Below are positions 2-30,288 of a stretch of 30,288 nucleotides of DNA, piece after piece. The translations under genes and the position numbers were made by a program. Positions within the stretch are counted from its first letter, which is position 1. Each line of letters starts with the position of its first letter. Location: the IMG/VR virus record IMGVR_UViG_3300029787_000191, positions 1-30,288 of that record, one strand, 5' to 3'. Source of the stretch: a virus. Under the pieces are notes generated by a model. The model worked only from the letters and a program-made list of their open reading frames with translations, was not told the DNA's origin and made no database searches.

Positions 2-2035
2 GATGGCTTAATAGAAGAAGTAGGATATTTCTCAAGTGAGTTAGTACAAAACGGAAACTTTAGTGAATTAGGAAGCGAAATTATACCTGACCCAAATTTT
101 GACACAGACAGCACTTCTTATTGGTCTATTGCATCTACAGGTGGCACACCAAGAGCTACAAAGAGTTATATTGATACGTTTGAAGGTAAGTTTATGCGAT
201 TAACATATGATTTAGCAAATGGTGCTGCTATTAATAGAGGAGGTGCTATTGTATCAGGTAAATCTTATAGAGTTACTTTTAGAGCTAAAGGAACAGCAAA
301 TTCAGCATTTGCAAGTGTAGGAAACAATGGAGATTTAGGAACAGTAATATCGAATCCAACTTTAACTACAAGTTTTCAAAATTATGAGTTTTACATAACA
401 GCAACTCAGACTACTTTTAGATTATATTTATCTACAAGTGCAGTTAATATTGGAGACACTTTAGATATTGATAACATATCAGTAAAACAAGTTGATCCTA
501 ATGATAGATGGACTTTAGGAACAGGATGGGTTTACGGAGCAAATAAAATAAGTAATACAGGGGGTGCAAATTTTTCAGATGCTACACAAAGTAACTCAAA
601 TATAATTATTGGCAATACATACAAAGTTTCATATACTATTTCTAACTACACAAGTGGCTCAATAAAATTTATAATGAATAACAATTCTGCAACAGGTGTA
701 GAAAGAAATGCAAACGGAAACTATGTTGATATTATAGTTTCAAACAGTCAAGGATATTCCATAAGAACACAAGGTAGTGGTTTTGTTGGGGATATATCTA
801 ACATAAGCGTAGTAGAAGTACAAGGCGATAGACCAAGATTAAGTTACGATATAACAAATGGAGTAGTAGAAGATAAACCACATTTACTTTTGGAAAATAG
901 TGCTACGAATCTTGTTACCTTTAGTGAGGATTTCAGTCAGTCTGCTTGGGTTAAAGAAAATTTAAGTGTTATAGCAAATCAAGCTATATCTCCTGATGGA
1001 GGTTTAAATGCTAATAAAATTATTGAAAACAATCAAAACACTTTTCATTTATGCTTACATACAGTAACCACATCTTCATCTGCAAATTATCTTTGGTCTG
1101 TTTTTGTAAAAAAAGGTACAAGAACTAATGCGTATATTTATTTTAGAACTAATGGAGGCTCTACAAGATATGGTTTTAATATTAATTTAGAAAATGGTTT
1201 AATAACCGATACAGAATCTTATGGCTCTGTAACAAATGTAGAAACAAATGTAGTTTATTATGGTAATGATTGGTATAGGTGTAGTATCAGGATGGGTAAC
1301 ACATCAGGATATATATCAGGTATTGTTGCACCAAACAACAATTCTACTACTAACGGAATCAACAATGAATATCAAGGAGATGGAACAAGTTATATATATG
1401 CTTGGGGCGCACAATTAGAACAGCAATCATACGCTACATCATACATACCCACAGCAGGAACTACTATTACAAGAGCTGCTGAAACTTGTAACAATTCTAA
1501 ACCAAGTGTAAATAGTACAGAGGGTGTTTTATATGCAGAGATAGCTGCACTTGCAGATGACCAAACATTTAGAAATATATCAATAAGTGATGGTGTAGGC
1601 ACAAACGCAATTAGAATGAATTTTAACACTACATCAAATAGAATATCATCTATAAATAGAGTTGGTAATAGTAATAGTGCTTTTATAAGCTATGATGCTA
1701 CTGATATAACACAATATCAAAAAGTAGCTTTTAAGTTTAAAGTAAATGATTTTGCTGTATATGTAAATGGAACAGAGATAGGAACAGATACTTCAGGTGC
1801 AGTAAATAGTGCAGGTGCTTTAACAACTTTAAATTTTGACCAAGCAGATGGTGGAAGTCCATTTTATGGAAAAGTAAAAGGTTTAGCAGTATATAACGAA
1901 GCATTAAGCGAATCACAACTTATGCAACTAACAGGCGTAACAGCATCATCAATATATAACAACTTTGTAACAAGAACAGCATCCTTTACAGTAGAAGCAT
2001 TAAACGAAGTTAAAAAAGTAATAGATAATTTATAA
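2..2035 (+). CDS. Tail fibre/adhesin with carbohydrate-binding-like modules (5' end off the window)
   Basis: The reading frame is open from base 2, so the true start lies left of the window and 677 residues are visible. It begins with DGLIEEVGYF, matching the SEGLIERVGYY anchor phrase of the next gene. Then come at least two beta-sandwich modules resembling the CBM_4_9 carbohydrate-binding family: each opens with a phrase like LVQNGNF or PDPNFDT and closes with DIDNISVK or GDISNISVVE. A middle domain follows (LLLENSATNLVTFSEDFSQS through QLEQQSYATSYIPT and TRAAETC), then a C-terminal LamG/concanavalin-like fold (FKVNDFAVYVNGTEIG, FYGKVKGLAVYN). The likely role is host-glycan recognition at the tail or capsid surface. 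The ATG at 194 lies inside a module and is unlikely to be the start. The family role is from recollection of phage fibres; the sugar target is unknown. Confidence 0.8.
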   Translation, partial: DGLIEEVGYFSSELVQNGNFSELGSEIIPDPNFDTDSTSYWSIASTGGTPRATKSYIDTFEGKFMRLTYDLANGAAINRGGAIVSGKSYRVTFRAKGTANSAFASVGNNGDLGTVISNPTLTTSFQNYEFYITATQTTFRLYLSTSAVNIGDTLDIDNISVKQVDPNDRWTLGTGWVYGANKISNTGGANFSDATQSNSNIIIGNTYKVSYTISNYTSGSIKFIMNNNSATGVERNANGNYVDIIVSNSQGYSIRTQGSGFVGDISNISVVEVQGDRPRLSYDITNGVVEDKPHLLLENSATNLVTFSEDFSQSAWVKENLSVIANQAISPDGGLNANKIIENNQNTFHLCLHTVTTSSSANYLWSVFVKKGTRTNAYIYFRTNGGSTRYGFNINLENGLITDTESYGSVTNVETNVVYYGNDWYRCSIRMGNTSGYISGIVAPNNNSTTNGINNEYQGDGTSYIYAWGAQLEQQSYATSYIPTAGTTITRAAETCNNSKPSVNSTEGVLYAEIAALADDQTFRNISISDGVGTNAIRMNFNTTSNRISSINRVGNSNSAFISYDATDITQYQKVAFKFKVNDFAVYVNGTEIGTDTSGAVNSAGALTTLNFDQADGGSPFYGKVKGLAVYNEALSESQLMQLTGVTASSIYNNFVTRTASFTVEALNEVKKVIDNL

Positions 2036-2038
2036 GAT

Positions 2039-3673
2039 ATGGATATACCAAGTTTATTTATGATTCCCTCAGCAGTTAGTTCAGGCAAAGTACATTCTGT
2101 ATTTCCTAACTCAACGGATGCTGATTTTGACTTTAATAGAGATTCGGATGCTACTCGTGTGAATAGTGAGGGTTTAATAGAAAGAGTAGGTTATTATGGT
2201 AGTGAATTAATTACAAATGGCGACTTTGCGACAGATTCTAATTGGACTAAAGGCTCAGGATGGAGTATAAGCAATGGTGTGGCTATTTCAAGTGGTATTC
2301 AAACAGGAAACTCTAATTTCTATCAAGTAGTTTATACAACAAGTAAGGTTTACAATACAAGGCTTAAGGTTATAGCAATTAATGGAACTTTACGAGTGTT
2401 TACAGGTACAGGGGCAGCAAGTCTTACTATAACAGAAGTAGGCGATTACGAGGTTTTAGATAAATTAGCAGATTCTTCTACAGTTTTATACTTGCAAGTT
2501 ACAGCAGGTACAACAGTAACTATTGACAATGTAAGCGTAAAAGAAGTATTAGGCGACAGAGCAAGATTAAATTATGAAATAGAGGGAGGTTTAGTAAACA
2601 CAAAGCCATCACTTTTATTAGAGCCACAAAGCACAAATATAGTTACATATAGTGAGGACTTTAGTCAATCGTATTGGACTAAAAGCAACACAACTATAAA
2701 TGTAAATCAAAGCACATCTCCTGATGGAACTTTAAATGCAGATAGTATTGTTAGTTCAACAACAAATAGTGTACATTTTCTTAGACACACATTTGTAGCT
2801 GTGAGTGCAAACACACCTCATACTTATTCCTTTTTTATTAAAGCTAATGGTTATACTAAGTTTGGGGTAAGAGATAATGCACAAACAGGAGCTTACTTAA
2901 CATACGATTTAGAAACAGAAAGCATAATAAATTCTGCATCAATGACCGTTGTTGTAAATAAACTAAAAGATGATTGGTTTAAATGTTCTTTCACATCTAC
3001 AATAGGAAGTAATGGAGTAGCAGGATATGCTTTTTATTTATTAGATGACTCCTATACAACAGGATACCTTAACACATATAGTTATACAGGAGATGGTGTA
3101 AGTGGTTTTTACATATATGGCTTTCAGTTAGAGCAACAAAGCTATGCAACAAGCTACATACCAACAAACGGAAGCACACAAACAAGAGCAGCAGAAACCT
3201 GTAATGGTGCAGGTACATCTTCTATTCTACCAAGTGAGGAGGGAATATTATATGCTGAAATAGCAGCTTTAGTAACAGGTGGAGAAAACAGAGTAATAAC
3301 TATATCAGATGGCTCTTATAATAATTCATCAAGAATACAACTTTACACTAATACAAATGAAATAGAAATGCGTACTGTTGTTGGTGGTGCAATACAAGCG
3401 TTAGAAAGAGTTGCAATCTCAAACACTCTTGATTTTAATAAAATAGCATATAAATACAAAGCAAATGATTTTCAGCTATATGTAAATGGTTCTAAGTTGA
3501 GGTTTGACACAAATGGTAGCGTGTCTGCAGCAGGAACATATAATACAATTAATTTTGATGATGGAGGGGGTAACGCAGATTTCTATGGAAAAGTACGAGA
3601 TATAAGAGTATATAACACTAAAGAGATGACAGATTCAGAGGTAGATATATTATTAACTAAAATAACAAGTTAA
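2039..3673 (+). CDS. Tail fibre/adhesin, LamG-like, paralogue of the upstream gene
   Basis: A 544-residue protein starting 3 nt after the previous stop. It has an N-terminal anchor (SLFMIPSAVSSGKVHSVFP, then FDFNRDSDATRVNSEGLIE, about residues 5-48). One CBM_4_9-like module follows (ELITNGDFATDSNW to TIDNVSVKEV, about 55-168), then the LLLEPQSTNIVTYSEDFSQS domain ending at QLEQQSYATSYIPTNG and TRAAETC, and a LamG-like C-terminus (YKANDFQLYVNGSKL, FYGKVRDIRVYN). It shares the same module order as the gene before it but has fewer CBM-like repeats. The DATRVNSEGLIE phrase recurs at the N-terminus of many phage fibre proteins. The inferred role is receptor binding; which virion structure carries it cannot be told from sequence. 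Confidence 0.8.
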   Translation: MDIPSLFMIPSAVSSGKVHSVFPNSTDADFDFNRDSDATRVNSEGLIERVGYYGSELITNGDFATDSNWTKGSGWSISNGVAISSGIQTGNSNFYQVVYTTSKVYNTRLKVIAINGTLRVFTGTGAASLTITEVGDYEVLDKLADSSTVLYLQVTAGTTVTIDNVSVKEVLGDRARLNYEIEGGLVNTKPSLLLEPQSTNIVTYSEDFSQSYWTKSNTTINVNQSTSPDGTLNADSIVSSTTNSVHFLRHTFVAVSANTPHTYSFFIKANGYTKFGVRDNAQTGAYLTYDLETESIINSASMTVVVNKLKDDWFKCSFTSTIGSNGVAGYAFYLLDDSYTTGYLNTYSYTGDGVSGFYIYGFQLEQQSYATSYIPTNGSTQTRAAETCNGAGTSSILPSEEGILYAEIAALVTGGENRVITISDGSYNNSSRIQLYTNTNEIEMRTVVGGAIQALERVAISNTLDFNKIAYKYKANDFQLYVNGSKLRFDTNGSVSAAGTYNTINFDDGGGNADFYGKVRDIRVYNTKEMTDSEVDILLTKITS

Positions 3674-8673: not shown

Positions 8674-9606
8674 ATGCTTATAAACTATTCAGAACATATA
8701 AACCGACTAAACGACTTCCGTAAAGGCAAAGTAAAAGAATCCCTTACGTTAGGAATAAAAGAACTTGATACACACTTTAGGTTTGTGCATAGCAATTTGG
8801 TAATGTGGTTAGGATTTCCAAATATAGGCAAGACACATTTTGTAATATATATAATGATGTTGTATGCCATAAAGCACAACTTAAGGTTTTTAATTTTCTC
8901 AAGTGAGAATGATCCTGTCAGCCTGATCAGGAAAATGATTGAGTTCTATTTTGGTTTACCAATCAATCGTATCGAAGAAGCTGATTATCAAAAGGGTGTA
9001 GAATTTGTAGACAGACATTTTAAGTTTGTAGATTGCTCTAAACAATACACCTATACAAGTTTATTAGCTTTAGCAACCAACATTAAAAATGCTTGGGACT
9101 ATGATTGTTTGATGGTTGATCCTATAAACTCTTTAAAAAAAGAAATAAAAGTAGGTAGCAATTCTTTTGAGTATGGCTACGAGCAACTCACAGAGTTAAG
9201 GATATTCTCCAAAAAATATAATGTTGCTACTTGGGTGTGTCTACACACAAACACAGAAGCGCTAAGAAAGGTACATCCTAAAGGACACGACTTTGAGGGT
9301 CAACCTGCTGTACCAAACTATGCCTCAGCAGAGAACGGACAGATGAATGCATCACGATCTTGTGATTTTGTAACACTTCATCGTTATATATACGACAAAA
9401 GAGATTGGATGTACACCAGAATGTATGTAAGTAAAGTAAAAAATCAGGAATTAGGTTACAGACCAAACTCAATGAATGAGCCTATAATGTGGAAAAGTAT
9501 TATTAATAATGTAGGATTTGAAATAGCAGGAAAGAATCCTGTACTATATCCAACAAAAAAACAACTAACCATTGACAACACTACAGAAAATAGCAGAGAA
9601 GCATAA
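8674..9606 (+). CDS. RecA/DnaB-type replicative helicase core
   Basis: A 310-residue RecA-fold ATPase. Walker A is GFPNIGKTH (residues 47-55), with a following helix FVIYIMM. A conserved FSSEND strand lies at 75-80. Walker B is YDCLMVDP with D149. An H-T-N segment (WVCLHTNTEAL) corresponds to the sensor region. A late motif, NGQMNASRSCDFVTLHRY, matches the arginine-finger/ssDNA-loop zone of DnaB and T7 gp4 helicases. It lacks the DnaB N-terminal collar and any primase domain, being much shorter than the usual 400-500 residues. It probably unwinds DNA at the phage fork. The start abuts the terminator T-tract; a RecA-like recombinase is a less likely alternative. Confidence 0.75.
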   Translation: MLINYSEHINRLNDFRKGKVKESLTLGIKELDTHFRFVHSNLVMWLGFPNIGKTHFVIYIMMLYAIKHNLRFLIFSSENDPVSLIRKMIEFYFGLPINRIEEADYQKGVEFVDRHFKFVDCSKQYTYTSLLALATNIKNAWDYDCLMVDPINSLKKEIKVGSNSFEYGYEQLTELRIFSKKYNVATWVCLHTNTEALRKVHPKGHDFEGQPAVPNYASAENGQMNASRSCDFVTLHRYIYDKRDWMYTRMYVSKVKNQELGYRPNSMNEPIMWKSIINNVGFEIAGKNPVLYPTKKQLTIDNTTENSREA

Positions 9607-10066
9607 TGATTGGTTACGCATAGTAAAGAGCTTTGGCTGTGATGGCGACAAATGCGAGGACATCGTCCAAGAGATGTACCTAAAAGCACACACCTTAATA
9701 AATAGTGGTACAGACATAAGTTACGGAGAGGACATAAACCACTTCTACATATACAGAATTTTACGCAGTTTATTTATAGATTTATGTCGCAAAGAGGCGA
9801 AAGTAACAAAAGTAAACCTTGATTACTTAGAAAGGTTTGTACAGGAAGAAGAAATAAAAGAATACAAAGACATAGAGGGTAAAATGAAGCAATTAGATAA
9901 TCTGCTTGACAAAGTCTATTGGTATGATAGAAAAGTATTTGATTTAATTAGCGAGGGAATGAGTATAGCAGAATTATCAAAGAAGTCAGGGATCAGTTAT
10001 TACTCTTTATATAACACATACAAAAATGTAAAATTATTAATTAAAAATAACATACAATGGGATTAG
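9572..10066 (+). CDS. Sigma-70-like transcription factor (phage sigma, TTG start)
   Basis: A 164-residue protein with two sigma-factor regions. Region 2 covers residues 20-76: CEDIVQEMYLKAH matches region 2.1/2.2 (core binding) and FYIYRILRSLFIDLCRKE matches 2.3/2.4 (promoter melting and -10 reading). Region 4 covers 115-160, with a helix-turn-helix at MSIAELSKKSGISYYSLYNT. The size and two-region layout resemble ECF sigma factors. The start is TTG, as no ATG is in frame upstream of region 2, and the gene overlaps the helicase by 35 nt, so expression is probably kept low. It could direct host RNA polymerase to the late ACGTTATA elements downstream; that link is inference. Confident as a sigma-like protein, less so for its target. 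Confidence 0.8.
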   Translation: MTTLQKIAEKHNDWLRIVKSFGCDGDKCEDIVQEMYLKAHTLINSGTDISYGEDINHFYIYRILRSLFIDLCRKEAKVTKVNLDYLERFVQEEEIKEYKDIEGKMKQLDNLLDKVYWYDRKVFDLISEGMSIAELSKKSGISYYSLYNTYKNVKLLIKNNIQWD

Positions 10067-10191
10067 GAGACTTAATAGAAAAGATAACAACCTACACAGG
10101 TATCAAATGGGTAGTAAAAAAGATATTTGGAAACAAGTGTGGATGCGATAAACGTAAAAAAAATTTAAATGACAAAGTAAAGCTATGGTAG
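10057..10191 (+). CDS. Small C-x-C protein
   Basis: A 44-residue basic ORF overlapping the sigma-like gene by 10 nt and the next gene by 7 nt. The start MGLGDLIEKITTYTGIKWVV is amphipathic, followed by KCGCDKRKK with C28 and C30. I recall similar short proteins with a GCDKR motif in flavobacterial phages but know no function. A single C-x-C could take part in metal binding with a partner; the next gene also has one. Confidence 0.65.
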   Translation: MGLGDLIEKITTYTGIKWVVKKIFGNKCGCDKRKKNLNDKVKLW

Positions 10192-14419: not shown

Positions 14420-15104
14420 TATTTATTTAGGCAACGCAGTAGAGCTGTCAAAACAAATAGAAGATAATAGTATTGATTGTATTATAACATCCCCACCATA
14501 TTATAACTCAAGCCATAAATATCAAAGAGGAACAGGTTTTCATTATACAGCAGATGTAGGAGAGCCTTTGTATGTTATTGTTGATTTTTTTGCAGCAATA
14601 AAACCAAAACTTAAAGAAGATGGCATAGCTTGTCTTAATTTAGGTTTTAGTTATGGAGAAACAGGCGTAATGCGCCCTTTTGATATAATTAACAGATTGA
14701 GGGAAAAACAAGGATATTTTATAAATGATATAATTATTTGGCACAAAAACAATCCAATACCAATGAATAAAAGATTGACAAATGCTATAGAGTATATATT
14801 TGTTTTAAGCAAACATCCTATAGGAAAATACTATACAAATACATACACACATAATGTTTGGAAGTTTCCTGTAGATAAAGGTGGTAGAAATCATAGTGCT
14901 GTATTTCCAATTACATTACCTAAATTATGCTTAGAACATTTTACAAAAGAAGATGATTTAGTCCTTGATCCTTTTATGGGTAGTGGTACTACAGCTTTGG
15001 CTTGTACAGAAATGAAGCGTAATTATATAGGTTTTGAAATTAACAAAGATTATATTAAAGTAGCAAATGAAAGAATTAACACAACTCAAAAAAAGTTATT
15101 TTAA
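14406..15104 (+). CDS. Beta-class DNA methyltransferase (N6-adenine or N4-cytosine)
   Basis: A 232-residue amino-methyltransferase with beta-class motif order. Motif IV, TSPPYYNS (28-35), comes first, and the SAM-binding motif I, VLDPFMGSGTTALAC (186-200), comes near the C-terminus, followed by YIGFEINKDY. The TSPPY form occurs in both N4-cytosine and N6-adenine enzymes, so the base cannot be fixed. The length is normal for phage orphan enzymes. It is the last gene of the early block, and its stop codon shares its final A with the first ACGTTATA late element. Probably an anti-restriction function. Confidence 0.88.
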   Translation: MKINNIYLGNAVELSKQIEDNSIDCIITSPPYYNSSHKYQRGTGFHYTADVGEPLYVIVDFFAAIKPKLKEDGIACLNLGFSYGETGVMRPFDIINRLREKQGYFINDIIIWHKNNPIPMNKRLTNAIEYIFVLSKHPIGKYYTNTYTHNVWKFPVDKGGRNHSAVFPITLPKLCLEHFTKEDDLVLDPFMGSGTTALACTEMKRNYIGFEINKDYIKVANERINTTQKKLF

Positions 15105-15111
15105 CGTTATA
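15087..15111 (+). promoter_or_regulatory. Late promoter-like element L1 (terminase unit)
   Basis: CAAA at 15087-15090, 13 nt, then ACGTTATA at 15104-15111. It is one of five matching elements. Here the element is followed by a palindrome and a longer leader (27 nt to the ATG at 15139), unlike the other four. Confidence 0.6.
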
Positions 15112-15113
15112 TA

Positions 15114-15127
15114 ATTGATTAATCAAT
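15114..15127. promoter_or_regulatory. 14-bp perfect palindrome, possible operator
   Basis: ATTGATTAATCAAT is a perfect inverted repeat placed 2 nt downstream of late element L1 and before the terminase ATG. The position overlaps the expected transcription start, which suits a repressor or activator site. A TTG inside it (15115) would be an alternative start for the terminase small subunit. Confidence 0.45.
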
Positions 15128-15138
15128 CTTTTTCAATT

Positions 15139-15381
15139 ATGGATAAACGTAAACTTAATGGTGGTAAGAGAGAGGGAGCAGGAAGAAAACCTAAGACAGA
15201 AGAAGTAAAACTAATAGAGAAACTTACACCACTTGAGCCATTAGCATTTGAAGCTCTTAAAAAGGGTTTAGAGAAAGGCGACTTTAAATATGTACAACTA
15301 TACTACAACTATGTAGCAGGTAAACCAAAAGAAACAAAGGACATACACATAAACGAAGATGTACCTTTATTTATTGATTAA
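15139..15381 (+). CDS. Terminase small subunit
   Basis: An 80-residue protein with the typical N-terminus NGGKREGAGRKPKTEE, a basic DNA-binding lead segment seen in many small terminases and in ParB/HTH contexts. A helical central part follows (FEALKKGLEKGDFKYVQLYY) and an acidic end. It recognises phage DNA for packaging and recruits the large subunit, whose ATG overlaps its stop (TAATG). The ATG at 15139 was preferred; a TTG at 15115 would add eight residues but lies inside a palindrome. The protein is short for a TerS, so the oligomerisation domain is minimal. Confidence 0.8.
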   Translation: MDKRKLNGGKREGAGRKPKTEEVKLIEKLTPLEPLAFEALKKGLEKGDFKYVQLYYNYVAGKPKETKDIHINEDVPLFID

Positions 15382-16550
15382 TGCAAATAACCAAAACCTT
15401 AGCACTAAACAAACTACGAGAACTAAACAAAAGAGTTCGTATTATAAGAGGGGGATCATCAGCAGGTAAAACAATAGCAATCATAGCAATCCTTATAGAC
15501 TATGCAATTCGCAACAAGGGAAAAGAAATAAGCATAGTAGCTGAATCAGTACCACACTTACGTAGAGGCGCTTTAAAAGACTTTCTAAACATCCTTAAGG
15601 CATTGAATAGGTATGATGACAGAAAGTTCAACAAAAGTACCTTAAAATACGAATTTAGTACAGGTAGCTATATAGAGTTCTTTAGTACAGACCAACCTGA
15701 CAAACTAAGAGGAGCAAGAAGAACAGACTTATTTATTAACGAGTGTAACAATGTTAGCTTTGATTCTTACCAACAATTAGCAGTTAGAACATCAGGTAAC
15801 ATTTGGTTAGACTACAATCCTGCTAATTTATTTTGGGTAGACAAAGAACTAATAGGACAGCAAGATGCAAACTTTATAACCCTTACTTATAAAGACAACG
15901 ATAGTCTTCCTAAATCAATAGTAAAAGAAATAGAGAAAGCCAAAGAGAAAGGTAAGACATCAACCTATTGGGCAAATTGGTGGAAAGTCTACGGACTTGG
16001 TCAGATAGGTAGCTTAGAGGGTGCGTGTATTCCTGATTGGAAACCTATTGATAACATACCAAGTGAAGCTAGATTGCTTTGTTCAGGGTTAGACTTTGGC
16101 TACTCGGTTGATCCCTCAACAATTATAAGACTATACAAATGGAATGATGCTTATATATTTGATGAGGTACTTTACAGAAAGGGAATGTTAAATAGAGACC
16201 TCAGCTACTTTATTAAACAGAACGAGATGCGAGAACAAATATACGCAGATAGTGCAGAGCCTAAGTCTATTCAAGAACTAAGAAACTACGGACACAAAGT
16301 ATATCCTGTAACAAAGGGTAGAGATTCTATAGTCTACGGAATTAACCTAATCAACCAAAACGAAATCTACATTACAAGCCATTCTAAGAATCTAATAAGA
16401 GAGCTACAGGGTTATGTATGGGACAAAGACAAAGAGGGTAACAATCTACAAAAACCTACAGGTACACACCCTGATTGTATTGACGCTGCAAGATACGCAT
16501 TAATGATGCAACTTAAAAATCCAAATAGAGGACAGTATGCAATTAGATAG
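15381..16550 (+). CDS. terL: Terminase large subunit
   Basis: A 389-residue packaging ATPase/nuclease of the Terminase_3-like group. Walker A is RGGSSAGKT (23-31). Walker B is TDLFINEC (115-122) with the catalytic E121. The coupling segment WLDYNPANLFWVD follows. The C-terminal RNase H-like nuclease shows GLDFGYSVDPS with D238, YADSAEP with D290, and HPDCIDAARYALM near the end. It drives genome packaging through the portal and cuts concatemers. The length is at the lower end of normal. The assignment is secure; the packaging mode (cos or pac) cannot be read from it. Confidence 0.97.
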   Translation: MQITKTLALNKLRELNKRVRIIRGGSSAGKTIAIIAILIDYAIRNKGKEISIVAESVPHLRRGALKDFLNILKALNRYDDRKFNKSTLKYEFSTGSYIEFFSTDQPDKLRGARRTDLFINECNNVSFDSYQQLAVRTSGNIWLDYNPANLFWVDKELIGQQDANFITLTYKDNDSLPKSIVKEIEKAKEKGKTSTYWANWWKVYGLGQIGSLEGACIPDWKPIDNIPSEARLLCSGLDFGYSVDPSTIIRLYKWNDAYIFDEVLYRKGMLNRDLSYFIKQNEMREQIYADSAEPKSIQELRNYGHKVYPVTKGRDSIVYGINLINQNEIYITSHSKNLIRELQGYVWDKDKEGNNLQKPTGTHPDCIDAARYALMMQLKNPNRGQYAIR

Positions 16551-16554
16551 TTTC

Positions 16555-16579
16555 TAAAACTTTTTTTTATTACGTTATA
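16555..16579 (+). promoter_or_regulatory. Late promoter-like element L2 (tail unit)
   Basis: TAAA at 16555-16558, 13 nt (mostly T), then ACGTTATA at 16572-16579, ending 5 nt before the chaperone ATG at 16585. This is the only copy with T instead of C at the first upstream position. Confidence 0.65.
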
Positions 16580-23103: not shown

Positions 23104-23128
23104 CAAAAAAATAAATTAATACGTTATA
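23104..23128 (+). promoter_or_regulatory. Late promoter-like element L3 (protease unit)
   Basis: CAAA at 23104-23107, 13 nt, then ACGTTATA at 23121-23128, ending 5 nt before the ATG at 23134. It directly follows the tape measure stop. Confidence 0.68.
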
Positions 23129-23133
23129 CATAT

Positions 23134-23739
23134 ATGAGAATCGTTGAATTAATTTTAGGAGATGATGAATTAACAGGAATAGAAGCTATATCTGTAGTAG
23201 AGAATCCTGCTATAGAAGAAGATTTTATCGCACTAAAAAGCGAGGAAATAAAACTTGCAGAGGTAGACAAAGAAAAACGTATTCTAATGGGTGCTTTGCT
23301 TGTTCCTAACAAACCTATCTATCGTAAAAAAGGAGAAGAAGAATATTACATATATTTCTCTACAGATACAGTAGCTAAAGCATCACAGCTTTATTTAATG
23401 AACGGAAATCAATCTAAAGCTACATTAGAACACCAACACACGATCAACGGATTAACATTAGTAGAATCTTGGTTAGTAGAAGATGAGGTACACGACAAAT
23501 CAAGAAAGTATGGTTTAAATGTTCCTGTAGGTACTTGGATGGGTGCAGTCAAAGTAAACAACGATGAAATTTGGAACAACTTTGTCAAAACAGGCAAGGT
23601 CAAAGGGTTTAGTATAGAGGGTTACTTTGCAGACAAGATGGAAAGACCTAAAGAACCTGTAAACGACTTTGAGAAAGAAGCAGAGGAAAAATTATCTGTC
23701 ATTAGAGGTATTATTAAAGATGGCGAGAAACATAGTTAG
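23134..23739 (+). CDS. XkdF-type prohead protease
   Basis: A 201-residue protein matching the Peptidase_S78_2 (XkdF) pattern. GIEAISVVENPAIEEDFIAL (15-34) is the family-typical opening. KRILMGALLVPNKPIYRK (about 48-65) and EEYYIYFSTDTVAKAS follow. Then comes the putative catalytic part, LEHQHTINGL (candidate His), VESWLVED (candidate Ser) and a GTWMGAVKV...GFSIEGYF end. It should trim scaffold and capsid proteins during head maturation, at a point 2 kb upstream of the capsid gene. The catalytic assignment is tentative, but family membership is well supported by the ENPAIE and VPNK phrases. Confidence 0.85.
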   Translation: MRIVELILGDDELTGIEAISVVENPAIEEDFIALKSEEIKLAEVDKEKRILMGALLVPNKPIYRKKGEEEYYIYFSTDTVAKASQLYLMNGNQSKATLEHQHTINGLTLVESWLVEDEVHDKSRKYGLNVPVGTWMGAVKVNNDEIWNNFVKTGKVKGFSIEGYFADKMERPKEPVNDFEKEAEEKLSVIRGIIKDGEKHS

Positions 23740-23839
23740 TGTTTATATAAAACCTAAAAGAAAATCACATCCACACAGCAAAAATGCGAGTGTAGGACAA
23801 AACAAATATAAAAAACCATATAAAGGTCAAGGAAGATGA
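23720..23839 (+). CDS. Small basic protein (KPYKGQGR tail)
   Basis: A 39-residue, strongly basic ORF overlapping the protease stop by 20 nt and the next ATG by 4 nt. The core RKSHPHSKNASVGQNKY and the end KKPYKGQGR look highly constrained. I recall comparable short proteins with KPY/KKY-GQGR ends in Bacteroidota phages, but know no function. Its charge would let it bind DNA or the acidic scaffold. Confidence 0.7.
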   Translation: MARNIVSVYIKPKRKSHPHSKNASVGQNKYKKPYKGQGR

Positions 23840-24186
23840 GTAAAAGAATAAGTAAAATGCTTTTTAGCAAAGAGAGAGTAGAGTTATCATTAGTTGATGA
23901 TTTAAAAGCCATACAAAAAGAATCTTCAAAAGCATATGTGGAGTATATTGATGATATGGATACATCTAAAGGCTTTTTATCACAAGCTAAAAAAAAAGCA
24001 ACTAAAGCTGTACAATTATTAAAAGAATCAGTAGAAACTTATAATAAAACAGAAAAAGCATTTAAAGAATTAGGTGTAGATATGCCAAGTGAATTAAAAA
24101 AACAAACGCCTGTTGCTGCATTACAAGAAGCAGAAAAAGATTTGAATATGATGACAACATTATTTTCACAATTCAAAGTAAGATAA
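23836..24186 (+). CDS. Helical hypothetical protein, capsid region
   Basis: A 116-residue helical protein with no membrane segment: VDDLKAIQKESSKAYVEYID, then GFLSQAKKKATKAVQLLKES, then LQEAEKDLNMMTTLF. It overlaps the preceding ORF (ATGA) and is 2 nt from the next. Families of this look near capsid genes include structural accessories, but nothing specific is visible. Confidence 0.7.
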   Translation: MSKRISKMLFSKERVELSLVDDLKAIQKESSKAYVEYIDDMDTSKGFLSQAKKKATKAVQLLKESVETYNKTEKAFKELGVDMPSELKKQTPVAALQEAEKDLNMMTTLFSQFKVR

Positions 24187-24188
24187 AA

Positions 24189-24320
24189 ATGAAAAAATTT
24201 GAAACACCAAGTAAGACAAGTCCAAGAGGAGGGCGTAGAGGTTGTTTATGTAAAGATGAAACCTATTCAGTAAAGTGCTGTAAGGGTAATATAATAAATC
24301 AAGGAATCGGTAAAATATAA
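24189..24320 (+). CDS. Cysteine-rich mini-protein (RGGRRGCLC motif)
   Basis: A 43-residue ORF, 2 nt after the preceding stop and 3 nt before the next ATG. It contains RGGRRGCLCKDETYSVKCCKG: C19, C21, C30 and C31 can form a zinc or disulfide site. It ends NQGIGKI. I recall this RGGRRGCLC...KCC...QGIG pattern as a recurring mini-protein in Bacteroidota phages, which supports it as a real gene. Function unknown; the position suggests a head-associated part. Confidence 0.75.
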   Translation: MKKFETPSKTSPRGGRRGCLCKDETYSVKCCKGNIINQGIGKI

Positions 24321-24323
24321 GTT

Positions 24324-24752
24324 ATGAGAAAAAAAGCAATGGATCATATAGTAGCAATTACTAAAAATGATAAACAAGAATTATCTACACACAGAGTAGA
24401 ATTAAACTTTCAAGCAGACATCCAAAAGTTTTTAGATGAAGTTTATGAAGAAATAGATTATAATGAAAAATTAAATAAATCAATGGATGAGGCTTGGGCA
24501 AAAGCAAGAAATGCAGTAAATGATTTAGTAGAGCAAACTAATGAGGTAAAAAATCATTTGCCAAATTTAGATGTAAAAGCAGACGGAAAAGAAATGAAAG
24601 ACAGAGTTAAGAAAGCAGCGGATGAATTAGGAGTAAAACCTGATGCTGTAAAAGGATATGATCTTATTGATTTAGCAGTTAAAGACGCTAAAGAGCAACA
24701 AACAAATGCAAAAATAAACATTAAAGATTCTAAACCTCCAAAAGGAGATTAG
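24324..24752 (+). CDS. Helical hypothetical protein upstream of the scaffold
   Basis: A 142-residue charged, helical protein: LNFQADIQKFLDEVYEEIDY, then SMDEAWAKARNAVNDLVEQT, then VKKAADELGVKPDAVKGYD. The C-terminus is polar (DSKPPKGD). It has no membrane segment or catalytic motif. It is the last gene of the L3 unit, just before element L4. It resembles the 116-residue protein upstream only in composition. Possible head accessory or scaffold helper. Confidence 0.7.
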   Translation: MRKKAMDHIVAITKNDKQELSTHRVELNFQADIQKFLDEVYEEIDYNEKLNKSMDEAWAKARNAVNDLVEQTNEVKNHLPNLDVKADGKEMKDRVKKAADELGVKPDAVKGYDLIDLAVKDAKEQQTNAKINIKDSKPPKGD

Positions 24753-24761
24753 ATAAAAATG

Positions 24762-24786
24762 CAAATATAAATTTTAACACGTTATA
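24762..24786 (+). promoter_or_regulatory. Late promoter-like element L4 (scaffold/capsid unit)
   Basis: CAAA at 24762-24765, 13 nt, then ACGTTATA at 24779-24786, ending 5 nt before the scaffold ATG at 24792. It should feed scaffold and capsid, the most abundant products. Confidence 0.68.
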
Positions 24787-24791
24787 GTAAT

Positions 24792-25367
24792 ATGAAATCA
24801 ACAGAAATCTTAAACAAAATCAAAACTTTCTTAGGAGAAGAAAAAACTGAGCAAGTAGAGGAAACAAAACTTGAACAAGTAGAAGAAACTCAAGAGGAAG
24901 TCAAGTTAGCACAAGCTACACTTGAAAATGGTACAATCTTAGAAGCTGAGGCTTTTGAAGCAGGAAACGAAATCTTTATTGTCTCAGAAGATGATAGAGT
25001 AGCAGTACCTGTAGGCGAATATCAAATGGAAGATGGTCAAATGCTTATTATTGAAGAAGAGGGGATCATTGGAGAAATCAAAGCTCAAGAAGCTGAAGAA
25101 GAAGTAGAAGCTGAAGAAGAAATAGAGGCTTATGTATCAAAAGAAGAATTTAACTATGCCGTTGAGGAAATCAAAGGTATGATTAACGAGCTAAAAAAGG
25201 ATAAAGAAGAAATGGCAGAGGAAGTAAAAGAAGAATTAAGCAAAACTCCTGCTGTAGAGCCTATTGCTCACAATCCTGAAGCTCAAGAGAAATTTAAAGT
25301 AAGATTCGGTAATAACCGAAAAGAGACTGCTTTAGATAGAGTAATGAAAAAATTAACCAATAATTAA
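24792..25367 (+). CDS. Scaffolding protein
   Basis: A 191-residue very acidic protein. Residues 1-45 are helical and E-rich. A central beta-like module follows (LENGTILEAEAFEAGNEIFI to MLIIEEEGIIGEIKA, about 46-97). Then come acidic repeats, a long coiled coil (YAVEEIKGMINELKKDKEEM, about 120-150) and a basic C-terminus ending RVMKKLTNN. An acidic coiled-coil protein with a basic tail directly before the capsid gene is the classic scaffold layout; the basic end binds the capsid protein. The inserted beta module is shared by some Bacteroidota phage scaffolds as far as I recall. Probably digested by the XkdF-type protease. Confidence 0.82.
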   Translation: MKSTEILNKIKTFLGEEKTEQVEETKLEQVEETQEEVKLAQATLENGTILEAEAFEAGNEIFIVSEDDRVAVPVGEYQMEDGQMLIIEEEGIIGEIKAQEAEEEVEAEEEIEAYVSKEEFNYAVEEIKGMINELKKDKEEMAEEVKEELSKTPAVEPIAHNPEAQEKFKVRFGNNRKETALDRVMKKLTNN

Positions 25368-26933: not shown

Positions 26934-26962
26934 AAAGGGGAGGTTTTTACCTCCCTTTTTTT
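26934..26962 (+). terminator. Rho-independent terminator after the tail tube gene
   Basis: GGGAGGT (26938-26944) pairs with ACCTCCC (26949-26955) around a TTTT loop, followed by seven T residues. The next promoter-like element begins 5 nt later, so the units are cleanly separated. Confidence 0.92.
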
Positions 26963-26967
26963 ATACA

Positions 26968-26992
26968 CAAAATCTTAAGTTTGTACGTTATA
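26968..26992 (+). promoter_or_regulatory. Late promoter-like element L5 (portal unit)
   Basis: CAAA at 26968-26971, 13 nt, then ACGTTATA at 26985-26992, ending 5 nt before the ATG at 26998. It follows a terminator directly, so this unit must have its own start signal. Confidence 0.72.
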
Positions 26993-29833: not shown

Positions 29834-30013
29834 ATGGCAAATACGATAAATTGGGGAATAGCGTACAGCTATGGTTATTGGGGCAACGCAACAACAACCA
29901 ATAGTTGGGGAGATGATTATATAGTAGAGTATTTAACTTCTGATCTTAGGAGAAGAGTGCAGATATACGAAAACAACACAATGACTAATCAACTATTAGA
30001 GAATATACAATGA
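29834..30013 (+). CDS. Small Gly/Trp/Tyr-rich protein before the fibre gene
   Basis: A 59-residue ORF whose stop overlaps the next ATG (ATGA). The first part, NWGIAYSYGYWGNATTT, is rich in aromatic and glycine residues; the second part is a charged helix (SDLRRRVQIYENNTMTNQ). No family known to me. A short AT-rich gap of 48 nt precedes it. It may be a minor virion part at the head-tail or fibre junction. Confidence 0.7.
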   Translation: MANTINWGIAYSYGYWGNATTTNSWGDDYIVEYLTSDLRRRVQIYENNTMTNQLLENIQ

Positions 30014-30288
30014 GTTTACTACAAAAAGCATCCATAATAACCACACCTACAGCTTATGCTGAGGACTACTTATATTCTATAAAACCTGCTTATGCTTTAG
30101 GCTCAGAGCTTGTTACAAATGGTAATTTTGCTACAGATTCAAATTGGACAAAATCAAGTGGGGCAGTTATATCAAATGGTGTGGCAACTATAACAGTAAC
30201 AGGTGGTGGCTTTCAATCAGTAGCACAAAGCATATCTCTATCTAATACAAAAAAATATAGAATAACTGCTGTAGTAAATGGAACTTCA
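30010..30288 (+). CDS. Third fibre/adhesin gene (3' end off the window)
   Basis: 93 codons are visible, and the frame stays open to the window edge. The start MSLLQKASIITTPTAYAEDY is typical of fibre N-termini. ALGSELVTNGNFATDSNWTK then matches the CBM_4_9-like module start in the gene at 2039 (ELITNGDFATDSNWTK), and ISNGVATITVTGGG follows like ISNGVAISSG. It is therefore a member of the same family as the two genes at the left edge. Unlike the gene at 2039, it lacks the DATRVNSEGLIE phrase before the first module. It is coupled to the preceding ORF by ATGA. Confidence 0.82.
   Translation, partial: MSLLQKASIITTPTAYAEDYLYSIKPAYALGSELVTNGNFATDSNWTKSSGAVISNGVATITVTGGGFQSVAQSISLSNTKKYRITAVVNGTS

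Follow-up and report, generated by a model that had tools for sequence, protein, structure and literature searches.

The locus at 9572-10066 raises the question of whether the small sigma-like protein that it encodes directs host RNA polymerase to five copies of a short element in the same genome, as a preliminary description had proposed. The DNA analysed, here called the window, is a 30.3-kb portion of a 33.2-kb virus record with 32% G+C. Its nearest cultured terminase relatives are those of Flavobacterium phages, at 47% identity, and the bacterial host is probably a member of the Bacteroidota. The sigma reading frame overlaps the 3′ end of a DnaB-like helicase gene, and its TTG start is shared with relatives L001, L034, L041, L057 and L083. 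The features around the sigma gene are as follows.

8674..9606, + strand: DnaB-like replicative helicase gene (PHROG 18375 and 19; gene order kept in relatives)
9572..10066, + strand: ECF-like sigma factor gene, 164 aa, TTG start (profiles, predicted fold, relatives)
10057..10191, + strand: 44-aa open reading frame with a CGC motif, beginning MGLGDLIEKITTYTGIKWVVKKIFGNKCGCDKRK..., its ATG within the last codons of the sigma gene

The predicted 164-residue frame was present and contained the region 2 motifs quoted for it. Profile searches, proposed as a check, returned sigma domains: Pfam Sigma70_r2 matched at 24.4 bits, above its gathering cut-off of 24 bits, and PHROG 1740, 'RNA polymerase sigma factor', matched with E = 1e-7. 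NCBIfam TIGR02937 (sigma70-ECF) covered residues 14-158 with E = 3e-10 and 39.9 bits, just under the curated cut-off of 42.9 bits; because this score is close to but below the cut-off, the protein is named 'ECF-like'. Helix-turn-helix matches at residues 122-154 stayed sub-threshold in sequence profiles. The protein is very divergent, the best hit of a phmmer search of the PDB having E = 0.23.

The second proposed check, structure prediction, agreed with the profiles. An AlphaFold model built from an alignment of 41 sigma relatives (alignment A1; mean pLDDT 82.5) showed two helical domains, region 2 at about residues 1-79 and region 4 at about 99-160, joined by a floppy, low-confidence linker (80-97). 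Escherichia coli sigma-E (1or7) aligned to residues 1-163 with Z 10.4, region 2 on −10 DNA (4lup) to residues 1-81 with Z 8.6, and sigma-E region 4 on −35 DNA (2h27) to residues 99-164 with Z 9.7 and rmsd 2.0, Z-scores of a size common among helical bundles. The last of these alignments bears out the region 4 helix-turn-helix that had been read from the sequence. The top solved structures were ECF sigmas, and sigma factors dominated the match list. The layout consists of regions 2 and 4 only, without regions 1.1 and 1.2 and without a region 3 domain. Across alignment A1 the core-binding motif residues E29, D30, Q33 and Y36 were invariant, as were L64, I141 and S145 in the −10 and −35 helices. 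As modelled, the phage protein contains both region 2 and region 4 of the sigma-70 superfamily. Its identity as a two-domain ECF-like sigma factor is confirmed by profile, predicted structure and conservation in about 200 relatives.

The elements assigned to this factor lie in the packaging and structural block, where the window contains five copies of ACGTTATA, all on the + strand. The predicted promoters and a neighbouring hairpin are listed below.

15087..15111, + strand: late promoter 1, CAAAA (15087-15091) and ACGTTATA (15104-15111), upstream of terS (ATG 15139) and terL
16555..16579, + strand: late promoter 2, TAAAA (16555-16559) and ACGTTATA (16572-16579), ATG 16585
23104..23128, + strand: late promoter 3, CAAAA (23104-23108) and ACGTTATA (23121-23128), ATG 23134 of an XkdF-like head protease gene
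24762..24786, + strand: late promoter 4, CAAAT (24762-24766) and ACGTTATA (24779-24786), ATG 24792, upstream of the probable capsid gene 25379
26934..26959, + strand: Rho-independent terminator-like hairpin (−16.4 kcal/mol, z −4.2), directly upstream of late promoter 5
26968..26992, + strand: late promoter 5, CAAAA (26968-26972) and ACGTTATA (26985-26992), ATG 26998, upstream of the portal gene 27342

Counting the bare 8-mer was rejected as proof: five copies were found against a shuffle mean of 1.0, which is weak alone, since 8 of 2000 shuffles reached five. The two-box form [CT]AAA[AT]-N12-ACGTTATA accounted for all five copies in the window and for none of the 2000 shuffles at that count, the largest shuffle count being 1. 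In this form ACGTTATA is the −10-like half and the upstream A-rich box the −35-like half. In every copy, the distance from the first base of the upstream box to the G of CG was exactly 19 nt. Four of the five copies ended exactly 5 nt before an ATG, and the terS copy 27 nt before. The window thus holds a two-box, rigid-spacer promoter with a −10 of the G-T-x type, as for ECF sigmas. Copies were present at 5 of about 40 genes, each after a gap, at the starts of transcription units; the hairpin at 26934..26959 may be marking a boundary between such units.

Several features of the surrounding genes were also observed. The interval between promoter and terS ATG (15112-15138) carries, in most close relatives, a conserved inverted repeat (TTGATTAATCAA and variants), whereas the four other late promoters are almost without a leader; the repeat could be a regulatory or packaging-site feature. 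At 15381-16550, terminases have been swapped behind the same two-box element, with terL of relatives being at least 90%, about 38% or about 27% identical to that of the window. Within 23134-25367, a single PHROG (24921) is matched in its two halves by the XkdF-like protease at 23134 and the gene at 24792; the two functions would thus be fused in some phages and separate here, each with its own late promoter. Tail-fibre-like genes at the two ends of the window (2-3673 and 30010-30288) share repeated segments (GSELVTNGNFATDSNWTK...), which suggests duplicated modular receptor-binding genes.

Scans of IMG/VR yielded about 200 relatives of the sigma protein. Close relatives share the gene order helicase, sigma, exonuclease, terS, terL and g16585 onward, and carry the elements at the same gene starts, on the strand of the sigma gene, most of the longer records having 3-5. 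The promoter spacing in relatives is 13 or 14 nt. In the first set of records tested, CGWTATA-N5-ATG had at least one match in 31 of 34, typically 3-5 in close relatives, while a reversed control pattern gave 0-1 per record; some records lack the pattern because sigmas of other lineages use other words. In 21.6 kb examined of a related Flavobacterium phage, in which no sigma relative was detectable, these two-box elements were absent. Searching 50,697 phage records with the sigma protein gave no match, and 84,980 bacterial and archaeal genomes gave only five weak relatives (25-28% identity), one of them on a 30-kb contig that is binned as Psychroflexus and also carries a g16585 homolog. In some relatives with V63/G66/N70 sigmas (L106, L115, L137, L145), the g16585 start is shifted downstream from the element by about 12 nt, and the distance to the ATG is therefore not fixed in that lineage. 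A single contig (L024 and L025; IMGVR_UViG_3300030061_000336, 47,685 bases) carries two sigma genes and two promoter sets, and is probably an assembly that joined two related phages, or a double genome.

The 44-aa frame that follows the sigma gene matched no known family. A small C-x-C protein follows sigma in 109 of 203 loci, and the CGC protein is a possible sigma partner or anti-sigma. CGCTATA copies just after sigma in L041-L053 were rejected as promoters, as the stretch codes for this conserved protein.

Published structural data provide a basis for assigning residues of the sigma factor to bases of the element. In the open complex of Mycobacterium tuberculosis SigH, the −10 element is G-11 T-10 T-9; T-10 has I85 stacked beneath it and a bond to N88, the two residues together forming a pocket for the −10 base, while N92 and I91 contact the −11 pair and W81 supports the pocket (PMC6411747). 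The phage family was aligned to SigH (5zx2, in which chain numbering is that of the paper plus two) by way of Streptomyces coelicolor SigR (1h3l). SigH W81, I85, N88, I91 and N92 aligned to phage Y59, I63, S66, I69 and D70, within the −10-reading helix at residues 57-77, where Y59, I63, S66 and D70 are the key positions. Positions 4 and 3 of the element, which vary between phages, fall at −10 and −11 in the SigH register; the covarying residues and bases described below are therefore the pairs matched in the published structure. On this alignment, covarying residues 63, 66 and 70 are predicted independently from the sigma-H complex.

Covariation was examined in the promoters of five orthologous genes, using a pattern with positions 2-4 left free and grouping by residues 63/66/70; the correspondence was close to exact. 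Sigmas with D70 and without Q63 were accompanied by CGT at these positions, including the V63/G66/D70 sigma of L201 (3 promoters). Q63/G66/D70 sigmas had CGA (21) or CTA (2), and a separate lineage with Q63/G66 and A70 or S70 (L217, L246 and relatives) had CTA (6). Position 4 was thus A in 29 of 29 promoters of Q63 sigmas, with ACGATATA or ACTATATA at the equivalent places, although such counts are not independent because closely related phages are included. V63/G66/N70 sigmas had TTA in 27 of 28 promoters and GTA in the other. Residue 70 tracked the base neighbouring position 4, D70 sigmas retaining G at position 3 with only two exceptions. Mixed words (TGT, TTA, CAT, TAT) went with a small number of very divergent sigmas. 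A single-residue code in which G66 reads A was ruled out by L201, which has CGTTATA. No simple pairing of single residues with single bases holds, since the V63/G66/D70 sigma of L201 goes with T and V63/G66/N70 sigmas with A.

The switch could also be followed between near-identical phages. L200 and the Q63 phages L045 and L047 are 88-99% (mostly 92-99%) identical in most replication, packaging and head genes; for L200 and L045 the values are 98% for terS, terL and g16585, 99% for g17318, 95% for capsid and 92% for portal and helicase. Their sigmas, at 80%, are the most diverged of 13 genes compared (others 92-99%), the helix reading RTLRA in L200 and KQLRG in L045. Position 4 was A in L045 and T in L200 at five of five promoters, and the other 35 positions of these −10-like boxes showed only one further change. 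Had six changes fallen randomly on 40 positions, five at position 4 would be expected with P = 9e-6. L057 (sigma KTLQT) is 89-95% identical to the Q63 phages L045, L047 and L051 in helicase, terS and terL (terL 90%), and L057, L083 and L201 repeat the L200 pattern wherever their promoters are in the data. One clade alternates between Q63 with A (L034, L041-L053) and T63 or V63 with T (L057, L083, L200, L201), while most neighbouring genes are 80-99% identical to those of the Q63 phages. When the helix columns were left out of the tree, three changes of Q63 and five of promoter base A were counted. In most pairings, 3 of 3 independent pairs agreed (sign test, p = 0.25), which is not significant because three pairs are too few.

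In these comparisons residue 63 and the base at position 4 change in step, and such natural covariation is the decisive evidence for this sigma as the reader of these elements. It might be argued that the sigma does read them but that the residue-base code is spurious, residues and bases both merely following phage lineage. The small number of independent switches (three) and the non-significant pair test leave room for this, yet the two states alternate inside one clade in which most neighbouring genes remain 80-99% identical, and the residues involved are those predicted from the sigma-H structure. We regard this reading as unlikely.

The remaining alternatives, both considerably less probable, separate the elements from the sigma altogether. 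Another phage DNA-binding regulator could use the element as its operator, with the sigma acting otherwise, for example in reprogramming the host's genes, a role proposed for phage sigmas of the sporulation-like kind. Other phage sigmas do act on host genes (PMC9429907), and a regulator could be encoded by one of the small genes, such as that of the 44-aa CGC protein. It would then be hard to see why the varying base is the one that the aligned sigma residues should read, or why in L200 and L045 it is the sigma, at 80% against 92-99%, that has diverged most while the promoters switch; we consider this explanation very improbable. Slightly more improbable still is that ACGTTATA is a translation-initiation signal, a Shine-Dalgarno substitute in Bacteroidota unrelated to sigma. 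The fixed 5-nt distance to ATG at four of five elements is what such a signal would show, and Shine-Dalgarno sequences are absent from the likely hosts (PMC9723704). The terS element, however, ends 26-27 nt before its ATG in the window and close relatives, and the g16585 element in L201 ends 17 nt before. Nor would a translation signal be expected to have an upstream partner box at fixed spacing, to be confined to 5 of about 40 genes, all after a gap at the start of a transcription unit, or to track sigma residues with its fourth base.

We therefore return to the sigma as the reader of the five elements, a proposal that is now strongly supported by comparative evidence: two-box geometry, orthologous gene starts, and covariation of residue 63 with base 4. 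It is highly probable that the minimal ECF-like factor encoded at 9572 steers host core polymerase to the five structural-gene two-box promoters. The sigma is probably made together with the replication proteins and would bind host core RNA polymerase, which would then be directed to the beginnings of five transcription units, those of terminase, head/tail, protease, capsid and portal. The A-rich box would be recognised by region 4 and the −10 box by the helix of regions 2.3/2.4, with D70 placed at G (−11), I63 and S66 at the following T (−10), and a loop near Y59 at the conserved T (−9). At four of the five promoters the SigH register would put +1 at the A of the ATG, so that, from register and distance, the late mRNAs at these promoters would be leaderless or nearly so. 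The ATG has been displaced from the element in some relatives (17 nt away at g16585 in L201), and a leaderless start is therefore not obligatory. Transcription start sites, contact register, early-to-late timing and host core binding are elements of the scheme that we infer. On the + strand, host-type early promoters (TTTG-N19-TAnnTTTG) numbered 12 against 8.8 expected, not clearly above chance, and the early part of the switch is therefore assumed from the order of the genes. A scan for E. coli-type promoters gave 67 against 84.6, below chance.

We also favour, with moderate confidence, a wider reading in which a large group of uncultured marine phages has its structural genes driven by an ECF-like sigma whose −10 specificity has repeatedly changed through residues 63, 66 and 70, all five late promoters being rewritten in concert. 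Near-identical phages would thereby have mutually orthogonal late transcription, with mostly leaderless late mRNAs. A concerted five-promoter switch involving a few sigma residues is a natural experiment on the joint change in specificity of a sigma factor and its regulon. It offers a directly testable −10 code (residues 63, 66 and 70), compact and possibly orthogonal sigma/promoter pairs, and a simple motif for locating late genes across many uncultured marine phages. In the literature covered by a partial search, we found no ECF-like late sigma described for such Bacteroidota-linked phages, no ACGTTATA promoter, and no phage late sigma with its whole promoter set identified.

The phage protein resembles ECF sigmas (M. 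tuberculosis SigH, E. coli sigma-E and those of flavobacteria) in its layout of regions 2 and 4, its predicted fold, its aligned −10 pocket residues and a −10 box containing CGT/GTT. It differs in being encoded by a phage, in the replication block, and in having no recognisable anti-sigma gene beside it, the adjoining 44-aa CGC frame being a possible candidate. An adjacent anti-sigma gene is common among ECF sigmas, though not universal. Its sequence is very divergent, and the A-rich −35 box lies about 3-4 bp nearer the −10 than in SigH (6 + 17 nt vs 19). Flavobacterium psychrophilum has an ECF-type promoter motif with a CGT −10 box, and only 5.5% of its mRNAs are leaderless (PMC9723704); relative to these SM6 promoters, the phage box is an extended ACGTTATA, so near the ATG that leaderless mRNAs are implied. 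T4 gp55 and SPO1 gp28/gp34 are established phage late/middle sigma factors (PMC9429907), and the role proposed here is the same, redirection of the host's core enzyme to phage promoters of the late or middle class. Compared by description, the present factor differs in being ECF-like and from uncultured marine phages, and neither a second sigma nor a sliding-clamp co-activator was identified. That phages have sigmas for middle and late genes is known; the unusual feature is that a sigma and its promoters have switched repeatedly and in concert.
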